NCBI GenBank assembly: GCA_963170155.1
Contig: CAUJGP010000024.1
Location: forward strand, 310,001-374,000
From: Bdellovibrionota bacterium
GTDB taxonomy: Bacteria; Bdellovibrionota; Bdellovibrionia; Bdellovibrionales; Bdellovibrionaceae
Reading direction: 5' to 3'
Length of the DNA: 64,000 bases
Shown: piece by piece, positions 3,680 through 15,301 of the stretch
Layout of the letters: each line of letters opens with the position of its first letter
Numbering within the stretch: position 1 is the first letter of the stretch
Position numbers and translations under genes: made by a program
Notes under the pieces: model-generated
Seen by the model: only the letters and a program-made list of their open reading frames with translations
Databases searched by the model: none
What the model was told of the DNA's origin: nothing

Positions 3680-4402
3680 CTATAGCTTAAAATTCTCTCC
3701 AAGGTAGTATTTCTTGGCTATTTCACTTTCTGTGACGACCAATGGAGTTCCTTCTACTTGAATTCTACCATCTTTTAGCAAATATGCATAATCACAAATT
3801 CCCAAAGTCTCACGAACGTTGTGGTCTGTAATTAAAATCCCAATATTTCTGGACTTTAGTGTACGAATAATATTTTGGATATCATTGACTGCAATGGGGT
3901 CAATTCCGGCGAAAGGTTCATCCAGCAATAAAAATTTTGGAGCTCCAGCCAAAGCCCTTGCAATTTCAACTCTTCGACGCTCTCCGCCGGATAATGAATA
4001 ACCTAAACTATTTTTGATGTGTTCAATACTAAAGTCCTTTAACAATTCTTCGAGGCGTTCTCTTCTCCGAGCACTGGAATAGCCCTGGGCTTCGAGGGCG
4101 ACCATGATATTTTCAGCGACAGAAAGTTTTCTAAAAATACTAGGTTCTTGAGCTAAATAACTTAATCCTCGTCGGGCGCGTTGATACATTGGCAATTTCG
4201 TCATTTCTTCATCATCAAGGATGATTTGACCATTTTCGGGGCTAACGATGCCCACAACCATGTAGAAACTTGTAGTTTTTCCAGCTCCGTTTGGGCCCAA
4301 TAAACCCACCACTTGTCCCGATTCAATTTTGAAGTTTACATCGCTCACGACTTGTCTTTTTTTATAGGATTTTGCAAGGTGAGTGGCTGATAACAAACTC
4401 AT
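3680..4402 (-). CDS. lptB: LPS export ABC transporter ATPase LptB
   Basis: 240 residues. Walker [10 protein letters not shown] (36-44), Q-loop region LAQEPSIF, signature [15 protein letters not shown] (136-150), Walker B FLLLDEP with the catalytic Glu (about 162) and the H-loop His in ILITDHNV. This is the cytoplasmic ATPase that, with LptF and LptG, pulls LPS from the inner membrane. Its ATG overlaps the stop of the LptC/LptA-like gene by four bases and rpoN follows, so the proteins are co-translated. lptF and lptG are not in the window. Confidence 0.95.
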
Positions 4403-5385
4403 GGAGCCTCCTCCTTTAGATTGGATGGCCGATCTTCTTTCATTTTCGCATTGATGCCCTCAATTTTCACTCTTTTTCCATTATCATACAAAATTATTTC
4501 TTCACCTTCCAGCTCATCAGCACCTTGAACAATTTTGGGAGAGCCTTTGAGAATATAGCGATCGTCAGAGAGATCAATTTCAAGGTTTTCTGCACTTGCT
4601 TTTTTTTCAATATCTGAAACCTGAACTCCTCCATTGACAATGATAGAGCGAGGAATATCTCCTCCTTTAGGGTAAGCAAATAGCGCTTCAGGCCCTTGAA
4701 TCGAAAAAGTATCGTAGTAAATTTTAACGTGATGATAAAAACGAATCATATTTGATTTTCCACTGAGTTGGGCTTTTTTACTTTGGATTTTAATATTTTT
4801 TCCATTGGACATCTGTCGATCTGCGATCACATCAGATTCAATGTTCATAAGACTATTTTCCAAGTAAGTAGTAATGCCGCGTCCTTGAAGGCGAAGCCTT
4901 TGCCCGGCTTTATCTTTAGGGCCTTTTAATCGTAAAACTTCTGGTGCATTTAATTGTTTGGTAGTGGAACGATAATGTATTGATGAGGTTACGAACTCAT
5001 AACCATTTGAAGACAATGTTGATACATCACCTAAAATATCCATATCCTTTGATGTCACATCAATTTGTCCACGCTGTCCTTGAACTACGTAGGTGTCACC
5101 TGTTCTAGCATAAAAAATGACTTTTACTTTTGAAAGGTTCCAGATGCCTTGCCCTAAAAACCCTTCGGCCGTTTCTGCAAAAAGTTCCCATTCTTTTGAA
5201 GAACCTAAGCCTTCTACCAAATGCACCCGTTCCATTTTTTGATCTGCAGAGTGATCAAAAATATTTTTAACTCCTGCGGAAACAGATTCTTTTTTATCGA
5301 TATACTTTGAACCCAACAATAGGATTTCAACAAATAATATTGATAATAAAATGTAAAATAAACTTTTGTTAATGGATCGAGACAT
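4399..5385 (-). CDS. LPS transport protein, LptC fused to LptA-like domain
   Basis: 328 residues: an N-terminal membrane anchor (about 8-25), then an LptC-like domain to roughly residue 190 (pattern [11 protein letters not shown] ... [11 protein letters not shown] ... [15 protein letters not shown]). A second beta-jellyroll region to the end has LptA-like strands ([38 protein letters not shown]). Free-standing LptC is about 190 and LptA about 185 residues, so the length fits both joined. It lies directly before lptB, where lptC and lptA normally sit as two genes, and no separate lptA is present here. The periplasmic bridge may therefore be built covalently on the membrane anchor. The domain split is read by eye. 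Confidence 0.8.
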
Positions 5386-5397
5386 CTTTTTTTGTTT

Positions 5398-6531
5398 CTA
5401 TCTTCGTTGCTTTACTTTTCGGCCTTTTACTTTATTAAAATCAATAAATTTAAAACTCGGATCAAACCCTAAGTCCATGGTCATGGCGAATTGAATTCTT
5501 CGGTCCTCATCTTGCCCAGGATATTCTCCAATCTCAACACCATAATAAGCCACATCCAGCTGAAACAGAAAAAAATCCAAAGAAGCACCTAGAGTGTAAT
5601 ATCCTTGGCTAAATCCCCCCCTCACATCAATTAAAGGCAGGTCTAGTTCTAAGCCCATATGCAATTTCTTGCCCAAAGGTTCTTTTGGCGTCTCAATATG
5701 TTTATAGTCAATAGCAGCAGTCAGGGCAAAAACTTTAAGATCAAATCCAGCAGCAACACCGAGTATTTTCTCTTCTGCAATGTTCGGTGGTTTTTGAATT
5801 CCAGCTTCTTTTAAAAAAGTGGTTCCTCCAACATCTTTCCATACACCAGAAATCACAGGATTAAATGGGGCGGGGATTTCCCAAACAATTCCCAGATCAG
5901 CACCGTAGCCATTTCCTCGGCGATTGAAACTACTTTCGATATTTGTTGTTTGGCCATCCAGAAAACTTGAAATACCGATTTGCTCTCGTGTTCCCATGCG
6001 GGTGATTTTCTTGGCCGTAAATCCAAGATAAGCGGAAGGCGCAATGGTGAAGGAACCACCGACGACTAAACCATAATCATTGAGGTAATTAATATCGAAA
6101 TAAGGTAAAATAGGGTTTTTAAGTTCAAATCCCATGGAACCAGAGTCGTAAACAGCAATACCAAAGTGAGGCATATAGAGATTGATTTTTCCACCTAGGC
6201 CTAGCCAAATGCGTTGCCCAAAATAATCTGCAAAACGATCAATACCAGTGGCGCTTGAATCGGCGATGGTTTGAGCGGATTGCAGGGCATTTTCTCCATT
6301 GATTCCTGTGTTTAAGTTGAAAACAGTGAGATTGATCCCTTTTACCCTTCCTAATGCTGCGGGATTGTAAAATAGGGCATCTCCATCATTGACCACAGCT
6401 GTGTAAGCGTTTCCCATTCCTAGAGCACGAATGGATTGAGCATATTCAAAAAGTTCCGCACTCCATACGCTGCCACTGTTCAAAAATAAATAAATAAATA
6501 AATATATTTCATAAACATATTTATTTTTCAT
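5398..6531 (-). CDS. Outer-membrane barrel protein, PorV/UPF0164-like
   Basis: 377 residues with a signal peptide cleaved near SVWSA-ELFEY and then SIRALGMGNAYTAVVNDGDALFYNPAALG, the typical N-terminus of PorV/UPF0164 and FadL-related outer-membrane barrels (Gly-rich, 'NPAGL/NPAAL' motif). Alternating hydrophobic strands follow to the end. It overlaps the upstream lipoprotein gene by four bases and precedes lptCA-lptB, so it belongs to an envelope transcript. Substrate unknown. A short basic tail (KVKGRKVKQRR) after the last strand is unusual, because barrels normally end on an aromatic residue. Confidence 0.75.
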   Translation of the reverse strand: MKNKYVYEIYLFIYLFLNSGSVWSAELFEYAQSIRALGMGNAYTAVVNDGDALFYNPAALGRVKGINLTVFNLNTGINGENALQSAQTIADSSATGIDRFADYFGQRIWLGLGGKINLYMPHFGIAVYDSGSMGFELKNPILPYFDINYLNDYGLVVGGSFTIAPSAYLGFTAKKITRMGTREQIGISSFLDGQTTNIESSFNRRGNGYGADLGIVWEIPAPFNPVISGVWKDVGGTTFLKEAGIQKPPNIAEEKILGVAAGFDLKVFALTAAIDYKHIETPKEPLGKKLHMGLELDLPLIDVRGGFSQGYYTLGASLDFFLFQLDVAYYGVEIGEYPGQDEDRRIQFAMTMDLGFDPSFKFIDFNKVKGRKVKQRR

Positions 6532-7427
6532 GGGCAGCAGGTATCCAAATCAGGATGGCCTGGAAGATCACAGCTGCCAATACCCAAGATATCGATGCTT
6601 AATAAATCTCTGTAGGTATCAACAAGTTCAGATTTATCTGCCAGATCAATATCAGACGGATCGAGAATAACGCACTTGGTGTCTGGTACGAGATCGCATA
6701 TTTGACCTATAACAGTCTTTACGGTGTTTAAAGTATTTTCCACGTCGCTACCGTTTCCCATCAACGAAGAAATATTTTCGAAAAAAAGACCGAATCCCGT
6801 AGCGACTTCGATAATTTCATCGTCGGTGAAATTAGCTTCATTGTTAGTGCAAGAGTCAAACCCCCCATCGGTGATTCCATCCCCTAGGGCATCGGCTCCG
6901 TCAACGTCAGATTTTGTTCTTAAGATAGAACCCATTTTAGCCATGGATAAAATAGCCATCACCATGTTGACTTCTTTTTTGCCAGCCATCGCGGTTAAGC
7001 GTAGTGCCTCGGTGGCTCCAATTTCTTTGAGTTTTTTTTCCGCTAAAATGCAATAAGAAGGAGTGGTGGCTCTATTTGTAAAGGACCCTCTGAGGTATTT
7101 AAAAAAAGTATTAGGGGGATCCAAATTGGCTTGAGAAATATTATTAAAGAAAGGAATAAATTCCATACCACAGGCTCCCGCGTAGGCGCTTGCAAAAGTC
7201 ACGCGAACGTCATTATTGGCGGCGAAGCCTGGTTCAAGTTCGATCAAATCCTCGATAGCTTTTAAGTATTCACCGTTCGTAATTTTTTTACGAGCGGAAT
7301 AAAGATAAGCTTCATTGGTGTCTTTGGGTGTCATGGGCTCTAAAAAATTGGCGCATTGAAACTGAGTCAATGACATCAGAATAATGAGTCCATGCATCCA
7401 TCGACGTTGAATTTTTTTTCTTATCAT
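6528..7427 (-). CDS. Hypothetical secreted or lipid-anchored protein with TPR-like repeat
   Basis: The ATG at 7427 gives 299 residues; an upstream TTG at 7469 keeps the frame open but is a poor start. The N-terminus is basic, then hydrophobic, ending ...LIILMSLTQFQCANF, which could be a non-canonical lipobox with Cys near residue 25. A helix pair, ARKKITNGEYLKAIEDLIELEPGF shortened here to its key features (Gly-Glu-Tyr, Ala-Ile, Pro-Gly-Phe), resembles a tetratricopeptide unit. Several Cys residues near the C-terminus (ending DTCCP) could form disulfides outside the cytoplasm. Family unknown. It is translationally coupled to the outer-membrane protein downstream. Confidence 0.6.
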   Translation of the reverse strand: MIRKKIQRRWMHGLIILMSLTQFQCANFLEPMTPKDTNEAYLYSARKKITNGEYLKAIEDLIELEPGFAANNDVRVTFASAYAGACGMEFIPFFNNISQANLDPPNTFFKYLRGSFTNRATTPSYCILAEKKLKEIGATEALRLTAMAGKKEVNMVMAILSMAKMGSILRTKSDVDGADALGDGITDGGFDSCTNNEANFTDDEIIEVATGFGLFFENISSLMGNGSDVENTLNTVKTVIGQICDLVPDTKCVILDPSDIDLADKSELVDTYRDLLSIDILGIGSCDLPGHPDLDTCCP

Positions 7428-10119: not shown

Positions 10120-11661
10120 TCAAGAGAGTTCGGAATAATCTTTAGCGTTAATTCCGTATTTTTCAATTTTGCGAAGGAGTGTTTTTTTGGGAATATTGGC
10201 GTGCAGGGCTGTTTGATTTATTCTGCCTCTGAAAGCTTTCAGAGCTCTGATAATGAAATCTCTTTCAAATGCTTCTTTTTGTAGGTTAAAATCAAAAGCT
10301 GGATCTGCAATTGAAGATTCGCTTGCTTCATTGTCTTCAAAATCTTTTTCTTCGATAGAGTGAATGGATTCTTGAAAATCCACATTGGCTAATTGATTTT
10401 GAACGAGAGGTTCACCGTTGGTATGAATATGAGTCGTTTCATTTTTATTGGAATTAAAAGAAGATTGCCAATCTTTCAATTCGATTCCTACAGCTTGAAG
10501 AAGAGTTTCAGGTAAAGATGTAATGGTAATCTGGTGGGAGCTCTCCATGACAAAAGCGTGTTCTATGACATTTTCTAGTTCGCGGATATTTCCAGGCCAA
10601 TCATAACGAGTCAGAACTTGCATTGCTGCTGGATCAACCCCGGTCACTCGTTTTCCATGCACTTGATTAAATTTTCTTACGAACATATTAATCATCACTG
10701 GGATATCACTGCGGCGTTCGCTGAGCGGCGGTAGAAAAATAGGTATGACGTTCAACCGGTAGAATAAATCTTCCCTAAAAGTGCCTTGTTTAATCATGGT
10801 TTCAAGGGGCCTGTTGGTGGCGGCAATGATCCGAACATTCGTTTGAATCTCTCGAAGAGAACCAACGGGCGTGAAAATTTTCTCTTGTAAAACGCGAAGT
10901 AACTTTACTTGCATGTGAAGTGGTAAATCACCGACTTCGTCGAGAAAAAGTGTTCCGCCTTCTGCATATTGAAATTTTCCGATTTTTCTCTGGTCTGCCC
11001 CTGTGAAAGATCCTTTTTCATGACCAAAGAATTCTGATTCAAACAAGTTTTCAGGAACCGCGGAACAGTTGACCGCAACGAACTTTTCATCTTTTCGGGT
11101 AGAGTTGAAGTGAATAGCTTTGGCGACGACTTCTTTGCCAGTTCCAGAGGCTCCACGAATCAAAGCCGGCGTATCCACTTTAGAAACTCTCTCAATAATA
11201 GAAAAAACCTTCTGCATCTGAGCCGTATTGCCAATAATTTTTTTGCCTTGCTCCATAAGAACAGGAGCCGAAGCCGCGACATTAAAAATCAAGCGATGTG
11301 CTTCAAGGGCTTTTTCTAAGATTTGAAGAAGGTCATCGCCACTGATGGGCTTTGCCAAGTAGTTGTAGGCCCCATCCTTCACTGCCTGGACAGCGCAATC
11401 AATGGTTGCAAAAGCTGTCATAATCAAAACTATAGTTTCTGGATTTAAAGCTTTAATTTGTTTTAAGGCTTCAAGACCTGAAAGCCTGGGCATATCAACA
11501 TCGAGAATAATCACATCAAAAGATTGTTTTTTTACTTTCTCTAAAGCATCGAGGCCGTCAAAAGCTTGTTCAACTTCATATTCGCGAGCGCTAGCAAGGA
11601 CTCCTTGCAGGGCTTTTCTAAGGCCTTCGTCATCATCAACGACTAACACTCTTAACGACAT
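10120..11661 (-). CDS. NtrC-family sigma-54 response regulator
   Basis: 513 residues in three parts. A receiver domain (acidic pair near 10-11, phospho-acceptor Asp54 in ILDVDMP, K104 in AKPI) is followed by an AAA+ domain with Walker A GASGTGKE (170-177), the sigma-54 contact loop GSFTGA (217-222; Ser replaces Ala of the usual GAFTGA, a known variant) and Walker B LFLDEV. After a long acidic linker (about 390-465) comes a Fis-type helix-turn-helix (RGRINQTALHANIPKKTLLRKI). It lies divergent from the radical SAM operon, whose upstream region carries a -24/-12 sequence, and the CHASE2 kinase in that operon is the nearest candidate partner. That pairing is inference. Confidence 0.93.
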   Translation of the reverse strand: MSLRVLVVDDDEGLRKALQGVLASAREYEVEQAFDGLDALEKVKKQSFDVIILDVDMPRLSGLEALKQIKALNPETIVLIMTAFATIDCAVQAVKDGAYNYLAKPISGDDLLQILEKALEAHRLIFNVAASAPVLMEQGKKIIGNTAQMQKVFSIIERVSKVDTPALIRGASGTGKEVVAKAIHFNSTRKDEKFVAVNCSAVPENLFESEFFGHEKGSFTGADQRKIGKFQYAEGGTLFLDEVGDLPLHMQVKLLRVLQEKIFTPVGSLREIQTNVRIIAATNRPLETMIKQGTFREDLFYRLNVIPIFLPPLSERRSDIPVMINMFVRKFNQVHGKRVTGVDPAAMQVLTRYDWPGNIRELENVIEHAFVMESSHQITITSLPETLLQAVGIELKDWQSSFNSNKNETTHIHTNGEPLVQNQLANVDFQESIHSIEEKDFEDNEASESSIADPAFDFNLQKEAFERDFIIRALKAFRGRINQTALHANIPKKTLLRKIEKYGINAKDYSELS

Positions 11662-11899: not shown

Positions 11900-11915
11900 A
11901 GGCATCTGTTTTGCA
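11900..11915 (+). promoter_or_regulatory. Sigma-54 -24/-12 promoter before radical SAM operon
   Basis: AGGCATCTGTTTTGCA has the invariant GG (11901-11902) and GC (11913-11914) separated by exactly ten bases, and keeps GGCA and TTGCA of the consensus TGGCAC-N5-TTGCA. Transcription would start near 11926, just before a GGAGG at 11931 and the ATG at 11949. This makes 11949 the likely start of the radical SAM gene; an ATG at 11916 would sit inside the promoter. The divergent neighbour is a sigma-54 activator. Confidence 0.65.
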
Positions 11916-11948
11916 ATGTGGATAGAGATTGGAGGTCAAGGCGCCAAT

Positions 11949-13289
11949 ATGACACTGCTGCAATACGAAAATATTTCTATTTTTAAGTTAAGCACAGGAG
12001 AAGTACTTGGGTTTCACAATGAAAACCTAGAGGTCGCTCGGTTGAGTCCCAGTGTGTGGGATGCTGCACAAAGCTCTAAAAATGAAGAAGAACCAGTTTC
12101 TGAAGAAATTTTGGAGCTTAAGGTTTGGTCTGAGTCTGTGAATGCAAACGTCAAGAGAGCTGTCGTTAATCAAAAAGTCAAAACTCTAACGATAAATACT
12201 ACGCAGTTATGCAATTTAAAATGTACGTATTGTGCAGCAGGAGGTGATGGAACCTATGGAGCTCCAACTGTTAAGATCGATTTAAAAAAGGGTTTGCCTC
12301 AGTTAGAGTGGTTAATGTCTCGCTGTCTTCCTGGGGAGCGTTTTCAGATTAATTTTCTAGGAGGAGAGCCTCTCCTTTATCCAGATGTCATTCGTGAAGT
12401 GGCTGAAGGCGCTGCGGAATTGGCTCAACAATTTCAAGTAGCATTGCGGTTTGCTGTTGTAACCAATGGAACGCTTCTTTTTATGCCAAAAGTACTAGAC
12501 CTTTTAAAAGAATTTAGAATGGCAGTGACGGTCAGTGTGGATGGGCCACCAAAAGTTCAAGATCATTTTAGACCTAAAAAAACGCCCTCGAATACAAATG
12601 GAGGATCTAGCGCTGATCTTGAAAGGGGGCTAATCGAATTAGGTAAAATTAAAAATCGATTGCCTAGTATTGGTTTAGCGGCTGTTTTTCACCGTGATTA
12701 TACTCAGGTCTTAGAAACTTATCGCTATTTTTTAAAGTGGGAATTCGATTTTTATGAATTTAACTATTCACATACAGATTATGATATCGAAGGGAGTCGG
12801 AGTTTTAGCAAGGAGCTGGAAAAAGTAGCTCAATTTGCCGATGCTCTTGGGGGTGAAGAAGAGCTCCGTAAAGTAAGGGGTTTTGACAGTATTTTAAACA
12901 GATTTGATGAGCAAGTGAAGTTAGAGAACTTCTGTGGTTCTGGTAAATCACTTTTATCTATGGATGCAAAGGGAGATCTTTATGCTTGTCCCTGGGATAT
13001 TAATGATAAATCTATGAAGCTTGAAGGGTCTCCTGCGCTCTCTAAGGTTCATGAAAAATATACAAATCACTTGAGCTTTTATGAATCTCCTCAGATCGAC
13101 AAATTAGCCTGTAATCGTTGCTGGGCCAAATTTGTCTGTGGGGGGGGGTGTAATTATGTCCATAAAGCAGGGTCTAAGGAACCGGCGGAAAAAGTGGATC
13201 CTATTTTTTGTGAGCGAACTCAAAGCTTGATAGTTACTATGGTTATGTATTATGAAAAATATAGGAGGGTTTCTAATGAAACACATTAA
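11949..13289 (+). CDS. Radical SAM/SPASM peptide-maturase-like enzyme
   Basis: 446 residues from ATG 11949 (see the promoter at 11901; the frame is also open from 11916). Order: a short N-terminal domain (about 1-75) that could hold a peptide-recognition fold; the 4Fe-4S radical SAM motif CNLKCTYC (Cys 88, 92, 95) with LGGEPLLYPD as the SAM-binding GGE; a TIM-barrel region; and a C-terminal SPASM domain with clustered Cys (NFCGSG, ACPWDI, CNRC, CGGGCNY, FCERT) for auxiliary clusters. SPASM enzymes commonly modify small peptides or proteins. The gene overlaps by 14 bases a 61-codon gene with a strong ribosome site, an obvious candidate partner. Substrate and product are unknown. Confidence 0.88.
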   Translation: MTLLQYENISIFKLSTGEVLGFHNENLEVARLSPSVWDAAQSSKNEEEPVSEEILELKVWSESVNANVKRAVVNQKVKTLTINTTQLCNLKCTYCAAGGDGTYGAPTVKIDLKKGLPQLEWLMSRCLPGERFQINFLGGEPLLYPDVIREVAEGAAELAQQFQVALRFAVVTNGTLLFMPKVLDLLKEFRMAVTVSVDGPPKVQDHFRPKKTPSNTNGGSSADLERGLIELGKIKNRLPSIGLAAVFHRDYTQVLETYRYFLKWEFDFYEFNYSHTDYDIEGSRSFSKELEKVAQFADALGGEEELRKVRGFDSILNRFDEQVKLENFCGSGKSLLSMDAKGDLYACPWDINDKSMKLEGSPALSKVHEKYTNHLSFYESPQIDKLACNRCWAKFVCGGGCNYVHKAGSKEPAEKVDPIFCERTQSLIVTMVMYYEKYRRVSNETH

Positions 13290-13461
13290 GGTCTGTAAGC
13301 CTCGTCCTCAATACCATCAAAAAGAAGAAAAGGCCGAGATTAGTCATGCCAATAATAAACCCACGGACGTAAAAAGGGAGAGTTCAGAAAAAAATTTAAG
13401 ATTTCTGAATGAAGGCCTCGGCTGCGTGCCCATTGGAAATCTCGTTGGGCGTGATATTTAA
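13276..13461 (+). CDS. 61-aa peptide, possible radical SAM substrate
   Basis: The ATG at 13276 is preceded by AGGAGGG six bases upstream, one of the best ribosome sites in the window, and lies inside the last codons of the radical SAM gene. The product has a charged, Lys/Glu/Asn-rich first two thirds and a short Gly-rich end (GLGCVPIGNLVG), with only two Cys (7 and 50). A leader-like polar part followed by a small core is the layout of ribosomally made, post-translationally modified peptides. I match it to no known precursor family. Its stop overlaps the start region of the kinase gene. Real translation is likely; the substrate role is inference. Confidence 0.6.
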   Translation: MKHIKVCKPRPQYHQKEEKAEISHANNKPTDVKRESSEKNLRFLNEGLGCVPIGNLVGRDI

Positions 13462-15301
13462 GGCTTTAAAATACTTTAAAAAAATTGATTTTTTAAGATG
13501 CATCAGGTGGGTGTTGGCAGCGGGAATCGCTGCCGTTTTGGTTTACCTGCCCCTCGATTTTTTCGAATTTTACCTTTATGATTTAAGGGTAGAGTTAAGA
13601 CCCACTTCTTCCATCAGTCCACAGATTGAAACCGTTTATATTAACCCGTCGTCAGTGCAAGCCTTTAAAGGGATGCCAGCCTTTAAAGAGCATATCCAAT
13701 TTTTAAAAAATCTTCAGAGTGAAAAACCTAAAGCTCTTATTTACTTAATAAATCCCAGTGAGCTTGAAGGAAACGATGCGGATAAAGCATTATTTGTAAA
13801 ACTGTCGGAATCTTTTCAAAATTTTTATTATCTTAGCAACACCGATGATTTGATGATGCGTGGAGAAGTTGGAAAGTTGGATTTACCAGGCCTTTTAAAA
13901 GATATTCGCGTTTTAACGGGGCCCATCACCTATGATTTAAAGGTTTTTGCTCAAGATGGAGTTACACGAAGAATGATGTTAACTTATCAGGGTAATATTC
14001 TATTTCATCCTTTTATCGTGAGCCAGTTAATACCAGAAAGGGCTCAGCCTAAAAATATTCGAGGGCATTTTGATTTTTATGATTCAGAGCAAACGTATAT
14101 TGATATGGCTCCTGCGGGTTCGTTTGCTAAAATTCCTTTTGTAGATATTGTCCGCGATAATTTCACAAAAGGAAAATTCACGGATAAAATTATTCTTATA
14201 GGGACAGACCTTGGCAAAAGCACAAAAGAATATATAAAAACATCTTATTCCAGAAGTGTTACGGCGATGACGGTAACCGAAGCTCACGCCAATATGTTGA
14301 ATACACTTATTCAAAACTCGGCTCCAAAATCTGTACCGCCTTGGGTTGATACGATTATATTATTAGTCATGGTCATTTTATCGGTGGAGGTGGTTTTGGC
14401 CATGAAACCACTTCGTGGTATATTTGTTCTGGGTTTCACTCTATTTGTTTTCACTCTTGGGTCTATTATCGCTTTTTGGTTTTTTGGTTTTTGGATCAAG
14501 ATGGCTCATCCTATTTTAGGCGTATTCATTTCGTATTATTTTTTAATCCCTTACCGATTGATTATGGAAAACCGAAAAAGTTGGGAGCTGTCTCAAAAAA
14601 ATAAGCTTTTAACTCAAGTCGAAGAATTAAAAACAAACTTTATTGGCATGATGTCTCATGATTTAAAAACCCCATTGGCTCGAATACAGGGAATGATCGA
14701 AGTAGTAAGTCGGGATAAAAATCCATTGAGTGAGGAGCAAAAAACAGCAATTAAATCCATCCGAAGATCCACCGAGGATTTACTCAACTTTATCAGCACA
14801 ATTCTGAATTTTAGTCGCTTAGAGAGCGAAGGGGCTCATCTCAACCTAAAGTCTAAAGACATCAATATTTTGATTAATGAAGTTGTTGCGAAGTGCGAAG
14901 ATTTGGCACAAATTAAAACTATTAAAATTATAACGGAGCTAGAGCCTCTATTTAGCCTTAAGTTAGACCCCGATTTGATGCGACAAGTGATATTAAATTT
15001 AGTTGAAAATGCTATCAAATATAGTCCTGTAGGAACAGAAGTCAAAATCAAGTCTGAAGAAAAAGACGGTAAAGTACTGGTCTCTATTATAGACCAAGGG
15101 GCAGGGATTTCAAAGGACGAGCTTCCTCGCTTATTCATGAAATTTTTTAGAAGCCGAAATGCTAAAAGCTCTTCAGTGAAAGGGTCAGGCTTAGGTCTTT
15201 ATCTTTCGAAATATTTTGTAGAACTTCATAAAGGTCAGTTAACGGTCTTAAGTGAGGAGAACAAAGGATCTATTTTCACGATTGAACTTCCTTTGGCCTG
15301 A
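13409..15301 (+). CDS. CHASE2-domain membrane histidine kinase
   Basis: 630 residues from ATG 13409; a GTG at 13451, overlapping the peptide's stop, is an equally plausible start. N-terminal transmembrane helix, then an extracytoplasmic CHASE2 domain (about 60-300; the FTDKIILIGTDLG and EAHANMLNTL segments are typical), three transmembrane helices (about 305-385), HisKA with the phospho-acceptor His417 in MMSHDLKTP, and an HATPase domain (NLVENAIKYSP, GAGISKDELP, GSGLGLYLSK). CHASE2 senses unknown external signals. No receiver domain is attached and none follows in the operon; the divergent NtrC-type regulator is the closest candidate partner. Confidence 0.9.
   Translation: MKASAACPLEISLGVIFKALKYFKKIDFLRCIRWVLAAGIAAVLVYLPLDFFEFYLYDLRVELRPTSSISPQIETVYINPSSVQAFKGMPAFKEHIQFLKNLQSEKPKALIYLINPSELEGNDADKALFVKLSESFQNFYYLSNTDDLMMRGEVGKLDLPGLLKDIRVLTGPITYDLKVFAQDGVTRRMMLTYQGNILFHPFIVSQLIPERAQPKNIRGHFDFYDSEQTYIDMAPAGSFAKIPFVDIVRDNFTKGKFTDKIILIGTDLGKSTKEYIKTSYSRSVTAMTVTEAHANMLNTLIQNSAPKSVPPWVDTIILLVMVILSVEVVLAMKPLRGIFVLGFTLFVFTLGSIIAFWFFGFWIKMAHPILGVFISYYFLIPYRLIMENRKSWELSQKNKLLTQVEELKTNFIGMMSHDLKTPLARIQGMIEVVSRDKNPLSEEQKTAIKSIRRSTEDLLNFISTILNFSRLESEGAHLNLKSKDINILINEVVAKCEDLAQIKTIKIITELEPLFSLKLDPDLMRQVILNLVENAIKYSPVGTEVKIKSEEKDGKVLVSIIDQGAGISKDELPRLFMKFFRSRNAKSSSVKGSGLGLYLSKYFVELHKGQLTVLSEENKGSIFTIELPLA

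Follow-up and report, generated by a model that had tools for sequence, protein, structure and literature searches.

A candidate radical SAM-modified peptide family encoded with a CHASE2/NtrC-type two-component system in Bdellovibrio and relatives

CteB, the maturase of SCIFF, is together with PapB and QhpD one of the thioether-forming maturases. The locus described here lies in a stretch of 64,000 nucleotides from a Bdellovibrionota bacterium (contig CAUJGP010000024.1, positions 310,001 to 374,000), hereafter called the window, and resembles the system of CteB and the SCIFF ranthipeptides in its radical SAM/SPASM fold, in a candidate N-terminal RRE-like domain (for which the matches here are weak), in the motif CxxCWAxxxCxGGC, common to CteB and the enzyme family, and in a short adjacent precursor with a core Cys. 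It differs in that one Cys is conserved where SCIFF has six, in its KHIKKxKP leader and in the CHASE2 kinase and NtrC-type regulator with which it is embedded; moreover, the enzyme of the window scores 107.9 bits against the NCBIfam SCIFF model, below the cut-off of 425. The PapB-family ranthipeptide maturases are also similar, their NCBIfam profile being the best or second best for all 42 members of the enzyme family, although the precursor here is without CX3D repeats and the enzyme of the window reaches 141 bits against a cut-off of 340. A regulatory role for a modified peptide has a precedent, since SCIFF ranthipeptides reportedly contribute to quorum sensing in clostridia (PMC8102284, citing Chen 2020).

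The locus shares with NtrC/PilR-type sigma-54 two-component systems the adjacency of kinase and regulator, a -24/-12 promoter and nearby palindromes. Unlike in those systems, the sensor is a CHASE2 domain, the operon holds a peptide and its maturase, and the genome has a PilS/PilR-like pair besides, as a separate paralog. The (C/G)TGTC half-sites of the palindrome recall PilR. The PilB/PilT/PilC/PilS/PilR-like cluster of this genome is adjoined by a second CHASE2 histidine kinase and by an NtrC-type regulator, the latter 53% identical to the window's (L220, G000:C23:194000-213000, positions 3832-7287, reverse strand). Agr-like peptide-pheromone systems likewise combine a short peptide, a processing enzyme, a membrane kinase and a regulator in one operon, here apparently autoregulated. 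The differences are that the enzyme and the kinase are unrelated to those of Agr, that no exporter is seen in the neighbourhood and that the kinase persists without the peptide, whose sensing is hypothetical here.

In the open-access literature we found no paper on a radical SAM RiPP of Bdellovibrio or on the CHASE2 kinase of this operon; the sequence-only reading of this DNA knew of no described system with this set of genes. As far as the literature and databases searched extend, the parts are of known kinds and the peptide family and the combination of genes are new.

Gene order and control region

Three genes of the forward strand overlap one another in the window. The first (11949..13289; Pfam Radical_SAM) encodes a radical SAM/SPASM peptide maturase of 446 aa, and its ATG at 11949 is preceded by GGAGG at about 11931; a longer version from 11916, given in the ORF listing, is unlikely to be used because that position lies at the promoter itself. 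The second (13276..13461) encodes the predicted precursor peptide of 61 aa (MKHIKVCKP...GLGCVPIGNLVGRDI), with a leader-like N-terminus and an invariant Cys50 in a C-X-P context. Its ATG stands 8 nt behind a GGAGG and the gene overlaps the first by 14 nt. The third (13409..15301) encodes a membrane histidine kinase with the Pfam domains CHASE2, HisKA and HATPase_c, an ortholog of which lies beside the peptide in 45 relatives; it has 630 aa if read from the ATG at 13409, a start that is uncertain and gives an overlap of 53 nt with the peptide gene, which the alternative GTG at 13448 would reduce to 14 nt. The coordinates first given for these genes proved right on re-check, as did their overlaps. 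The further claim that each gene has its own start region holds for the enzyme and the peptide and fails for the kinase, whose start region in the window has no clear Shine-Dalgarno sequence. The overlaps are not kept in relatives, where the spacing between peptide and kinase ranges from a 52-nt overlap to more than 100 nt and is mostly 0-35 nt.

Facing these genes on the reverse strand (10120..11661) is the gene for an NtrC-type sigma-54-dependent response regulator of 513 aa (Pfam Response_reg, Sigma54_activat and HTH_8). Of the relatives for which enough sequence is available, 43 out of 44 encode immediately 3' of the kinase a response regulator to which this protein is 55-67% identical over its full length; in the remaining one (L116) the regulator gene lies some kilobases further downstream. 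Since the facing regulator is the ortholog of the gene found 3' of the kinase elsewhere, the common operon is, judged by these comparisons, one of four genes (radical SAM enzyme, peptide, kinase and regulator), and the window holds a rearranged version in which the regulator was relocated and is divergent, while the first three genes were kept together. The gene order is conserved in related genomes, and cognate kinase and regulator, separated by the rearrangement in the window, are adjacent in the 43 relatives.

Many relatives have genes for IleRS, a Pro/Gln-rich protein, a penicillin-binding protein and an MBL-fold protein beside the operon, apparently as plain synteny. The three genes that follow the kinase in the window, of which the first is DUF454, show no conservation with the operon in relatives, and neither an exporter nor a leader peptidase is conserved in its neighbourhood among the relatives compared.

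A -24/-12 sequence had been noticed ahead of the operon, and a predicted sigma-54 promoter of the form GG-N10-GC is indeed present at 11900..11915 of the forward strand (AGGCATCTGTTTTGCA). Equivalent sites with a score of at least 12 occur in 42 of 46 distinct upstream regions of relatives (dinucleotide shuffles lead one to expect 7.8%) and with a score of at least 14 in 15 of the 46 (expected 0.17%). Some upstream regions contain a palindrome, GGTGTC-N5-GACACC, which scores at least 10 in 18% of regions against 0.03% of mononucleotide shuffles, an enrichment that is clearest in the outer families. It fits the dimer of a Fis-type activator and is a candidate regulator site. The copy in the window (GGCGCCAATATGACACT, 11940..11956, forward strand) is degenerate and overlaps the start of the enzyme gene, so that it is a weak, possible site; measured from where the -24 element starts, its centre lies 48 nt downstream. 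In ten loci including the window (a count that ignores kinship) the best copy of the palindrome, often degenerate, is found 46-49 nt downstream of the -24 element, a position which suggests control at the transcript start. A strict form of the pattern, searched in eight genomes, has this operon as its only place or as one of two. A global regulon drawn from the strong palindromes was accordingly rejected, the site being mostly limited to this operon.

Because a sigma-54 site and a palindrome lie near the operon promoter, these sites suggest that the operon is autoregulated through sigma-54 and its own two-component system. The proposal that the NtrC-type regulator closes the loop through sigma-54 thereby becomes probable: in 43 of 44 relatives the regulator gene comes fourth in the operon, and a sigma-54 site and a palindrome of regulator type are found nearby.

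Two genomes carry GGTGTC-N5-GACAC upstream of genes encoding homologous predicted outer-membrane proteins with no Pfam match (L213, 3024-4167; L214, 2963-4003). Among the homologs of these proteins the palindrome is only sporadic and sigma-54-like sites occur in many; the genome of the window has no homolog. The regulator may thus have this family as a second target and, given the same palindrome in two genomes, can have targets other than the operon.

The enzyme and its candidate substrate

Orthologs of the enzyme share 35-43% identity with it in most relatives. At an E-value of 1e-45 the enzyme was found in 82 of the 369 genomes of the phylum, practically as a single copy per genome: in 60 of the 66 genomes of the family, in 13 of a second family, in eight of a third and in one outlier. 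Six family genomes do not have it: in G007 it is clearly absent, whereas the remaining five are incomplete or, as in G198, break off within the kinase. An outlier genome, G301, belongs to another family of the phylum and has a distant homolog with about 23% identity (L197, G301:C81), its kinase-regulator pair lying at the end of a different contig (L198, G301:C80).

All the cysteines expected of a radical SAM/SPASM enzyme are present and invariant in 42 enzymes, namely those of the CX3CX2C cluster at 88-95 (C88, C92 and C95) and seven in the SPASM domain (329, 347, 388, 391, 397, 401 and 421). The AlphaFold model of the enzyme (pLDDT 89) has CteB as its best match among solved structures (Z 34.4, residues 7-439), followed by ChlB and anSMEcpe with Z 31-32, and the family profile also matches CteB best (E 2.6e-49). 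In NCBIfam, the PapB, nif11, QhpD and SCIFF maturase models are the best matches of all 42 members, and the enzyme of the window lies under every curated NCBIfam cut-off among the matches listed. In the model, residues 1 to about 62 form four strands followed by two helices, an RRE-like topology which makes this domain a candidate RRE (a PqqD-like leader-binding domain). Its best structural matches include the N-terminus of CteB (Z 4.3) and the RREs of lasso peptides (Z 3.2-3.9), but they are weak, as are the Foldseek hits obtained with the isolated domain (E 0.32). By profile and model, then, the enzyme most resembles the thioether-forming maturases CteB and PapB.

In relatives, a frame of about 30-60 aa stands right after the enzyme gene and combines a KHIKKxKP-like N-terminus, a variable linker of Gly, Pro, Ser and Lys and a C-terminal Cys, mostly as C-X-P; the B. 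bacteriovorus peptide has GEGCIPVR at its C-terminus. Leave-one-out profiles, trained on dissimilar peptides only, recovered the peptide after the enzyme in all 46 relatives and never on the opposite strand (0/46), which argues that the small frame is not due to chance; further loci beyond the 46 carry it as well. Cys is the only residue invariant in the 45 aligned peptides. The peptide of the window is longer than usual and has a weak score with the family profile (E 0.0019), which it matches as two fragments. Searches of genomes with this profile found one locus per genome, with a marginal second match in G033, and no model of Pfam or NCBIfam matches the peptide.

The Cys-peptide was not found in 21 kinase/regulator loci that lack the enzyme (19 in the class and two more distant); a borderline Lys-rich frame in one of the enzyme-less loci (L179) has no C-terminal Cys. 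As the peptide is found with the enzyme in 46 of 46 relatives and was not found where the kinase and regulator occur alone, it tracks the enzyme and not the kinase. A short co-occurring precursor gene with conserved leader and core is what a RiPP precursor and its maturase would display, and the peptide is likely to be the substrate of the enzyme, as the sequence-only reading had supposed. That reading would have failed had the frame been lost or shifted in relatives, or had the enzyme kept another conserved partner in its place; instead the frame follows the enzyme in every relative tested and its C-terminal Cys is conserved with it. The most likely modification, judged from the kinship and model of the enzyme, is a thioether from this Cys to a nearby residue, for which the alignment, with Cys as its sole invariant position, makes no acceptor evident.

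In a few enzyme-less genomes the stretch from a sigma-54 site to the CHASE2 kinase contains short frames that have no C-terminal Cys, are 25-56 aa long and are rich in Lys or in Gly/Pro (L178, where the frame spans -146 to -18 counted from the kinase; L181; L182; L184). They raise the question of whether they are remnants of the peptide or unmodified counterparts.

The two-component system and the role of the peptide

Our best reading is that the operon encodes a new RiPP family whose production depends on a sigma-54 two-component system and which perhaps acts back on that system. The enzyme would act on the adjacent peptide by way of the KHIKK-type leader, a step backed by the comparison of genomes, and by analogy with CteB, PapB and QhpD would modify the single invariant Cys of the C-terminal core, most likely to a thioether. 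The CHASE2 kinase would phosphorylate the NtrC-type regulator, which with sigma-54 would drive the operon from the -24/-12 site, as gene order and DNA sites suggest. In the least certain step the modified peptide would feed back on the two-component system: it might be exported as an autoinducer for the periplasmic CHASE2 domain to sense, or stay inside the cell as a modulator. We regard the whole, a Cys-modified, probably thioether-bearing RiPP within a self-regulating two-component operon and with peptide feedback, as having about an even chance of being correct. The narrower proposal that the modified peptide is a self-made ligand of the CHASE2 kinase in Bdellovibrio and relatives, forming a cell-cell or self-sensing circuit, is more doubtful.

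A CHASE2 kinase match was found in 290 of the 369 genomes of the phylum, far more widely than enzyme and peptide, and 19 examined loci of the class have the kinase/regulator pair without either. One of them, in G007 (L178), is nested among enzyme-bearing kinases in the kinase tree, so that enzyme and Cys-peptide were lost there and the pair retained. From this distribution the kinase/regulator pair appears to be the older core, in front of which the enzyme and peptide were placed as a separable cassette. It follows that the peptide is not an obligatory ligand of the kinase and would at most be an extra input; an obligatory contact is also disfavoured by the CHASE2 domain, in which no position separates the kinases with the peptide from those without it when the thresholds are set at 80% for one group and 35% for the other.

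These observations favour the strongest alternative, in which an old envelope-sensing two-component system merely switches on a RiPP with a target elsewhere (prey, a competitor, the envelope or a redox cofactor), with no action of the peptide on the kinase. The palindrome at the outer-membrane protein gene in two genomes, which makes other targets of the regulator possible, is in keeping with it. Against it stands the fixed place of the cassette immediately 5' of the CHASE2 kinase in about 55 loci from three families, some of which share little synteny otherwise, from which a functional tie between peptide and kinase can be argued, and the rearrangement in the window, where the regulator moved and enzyme, peptide and kinase stayed linked. 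We consider this output-only control a serious possibility, somewhat short of even, and nearly as likely as a peptide functionally tied to the kinase.

Very improbable by comparison is that the enzyme is an oxidase like the anaerobic sulfatase maturases, turning the Cys of a C-X-P-(X-R) core into formylglycine and yielding an aldehyde-bearing peptide. The cores CIPVR, CLPIR and CIPIR of many Bdellovibrio peptides do resemble the sulfatase motif CxPxR, and in fold anSMEcpe is one of the closest matches (Z 31); however, the Arg is missing from many peptides and the Pro from some, the CteB and PapB profiles score far better (2e-24 for anSMEcpe with the family profile), and the Asp after the SPASM Cys of anSMEcpe (PCD), which we take to be the catalytic base, aligns to Pro in the CPW motif of the family, for which reason this chemistry was rejected as the main reading. 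That the small ORF is no substrate and serves the kinase only as a leader, for translational coupling or regulation, is hardly credible and was rejected too, for although it lies between enzyme and kinase and overlaps the kinase in some genomes, and although short Cys-less ORFs precede the kinase in a few enzyme-less genomes, the peptide is conserved in amino-acid sequence at both ends, with the Cys invariant, and goes with the enzyme rather than with the kinase.

If the modified peptide is indeed a ligand of the kinase, it would be a first chemical input for a CHASE2 domain and part of a peptide-based circuit of predatory bacteria. To our knowledge, the ligands or inputs of CHASE2 domains are largely unknown and little is known of the chemical signalling of predatory bacteria. 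The peptide is a candidate signal or product in bacteria that prey on bacteria and, through the linked kinase, a concrete candidate ligand for a CHASE2 sensor domain. The operon occurs in nearly all genomes of the family examined, including B. bacteriovorus, and offers a new RiPP family with a minimal single-Cys core in a genetically tractable host.

Several Bdellovibrio and relatives have, beside the operon, a gene for another CHASE2-like kinase, some 605-745 aa in length. This kinase is encoded upstream of the radical SAM gene, on the opposite strand in L047, L111, L206 and L207 and on the same strand in L122 and L130.
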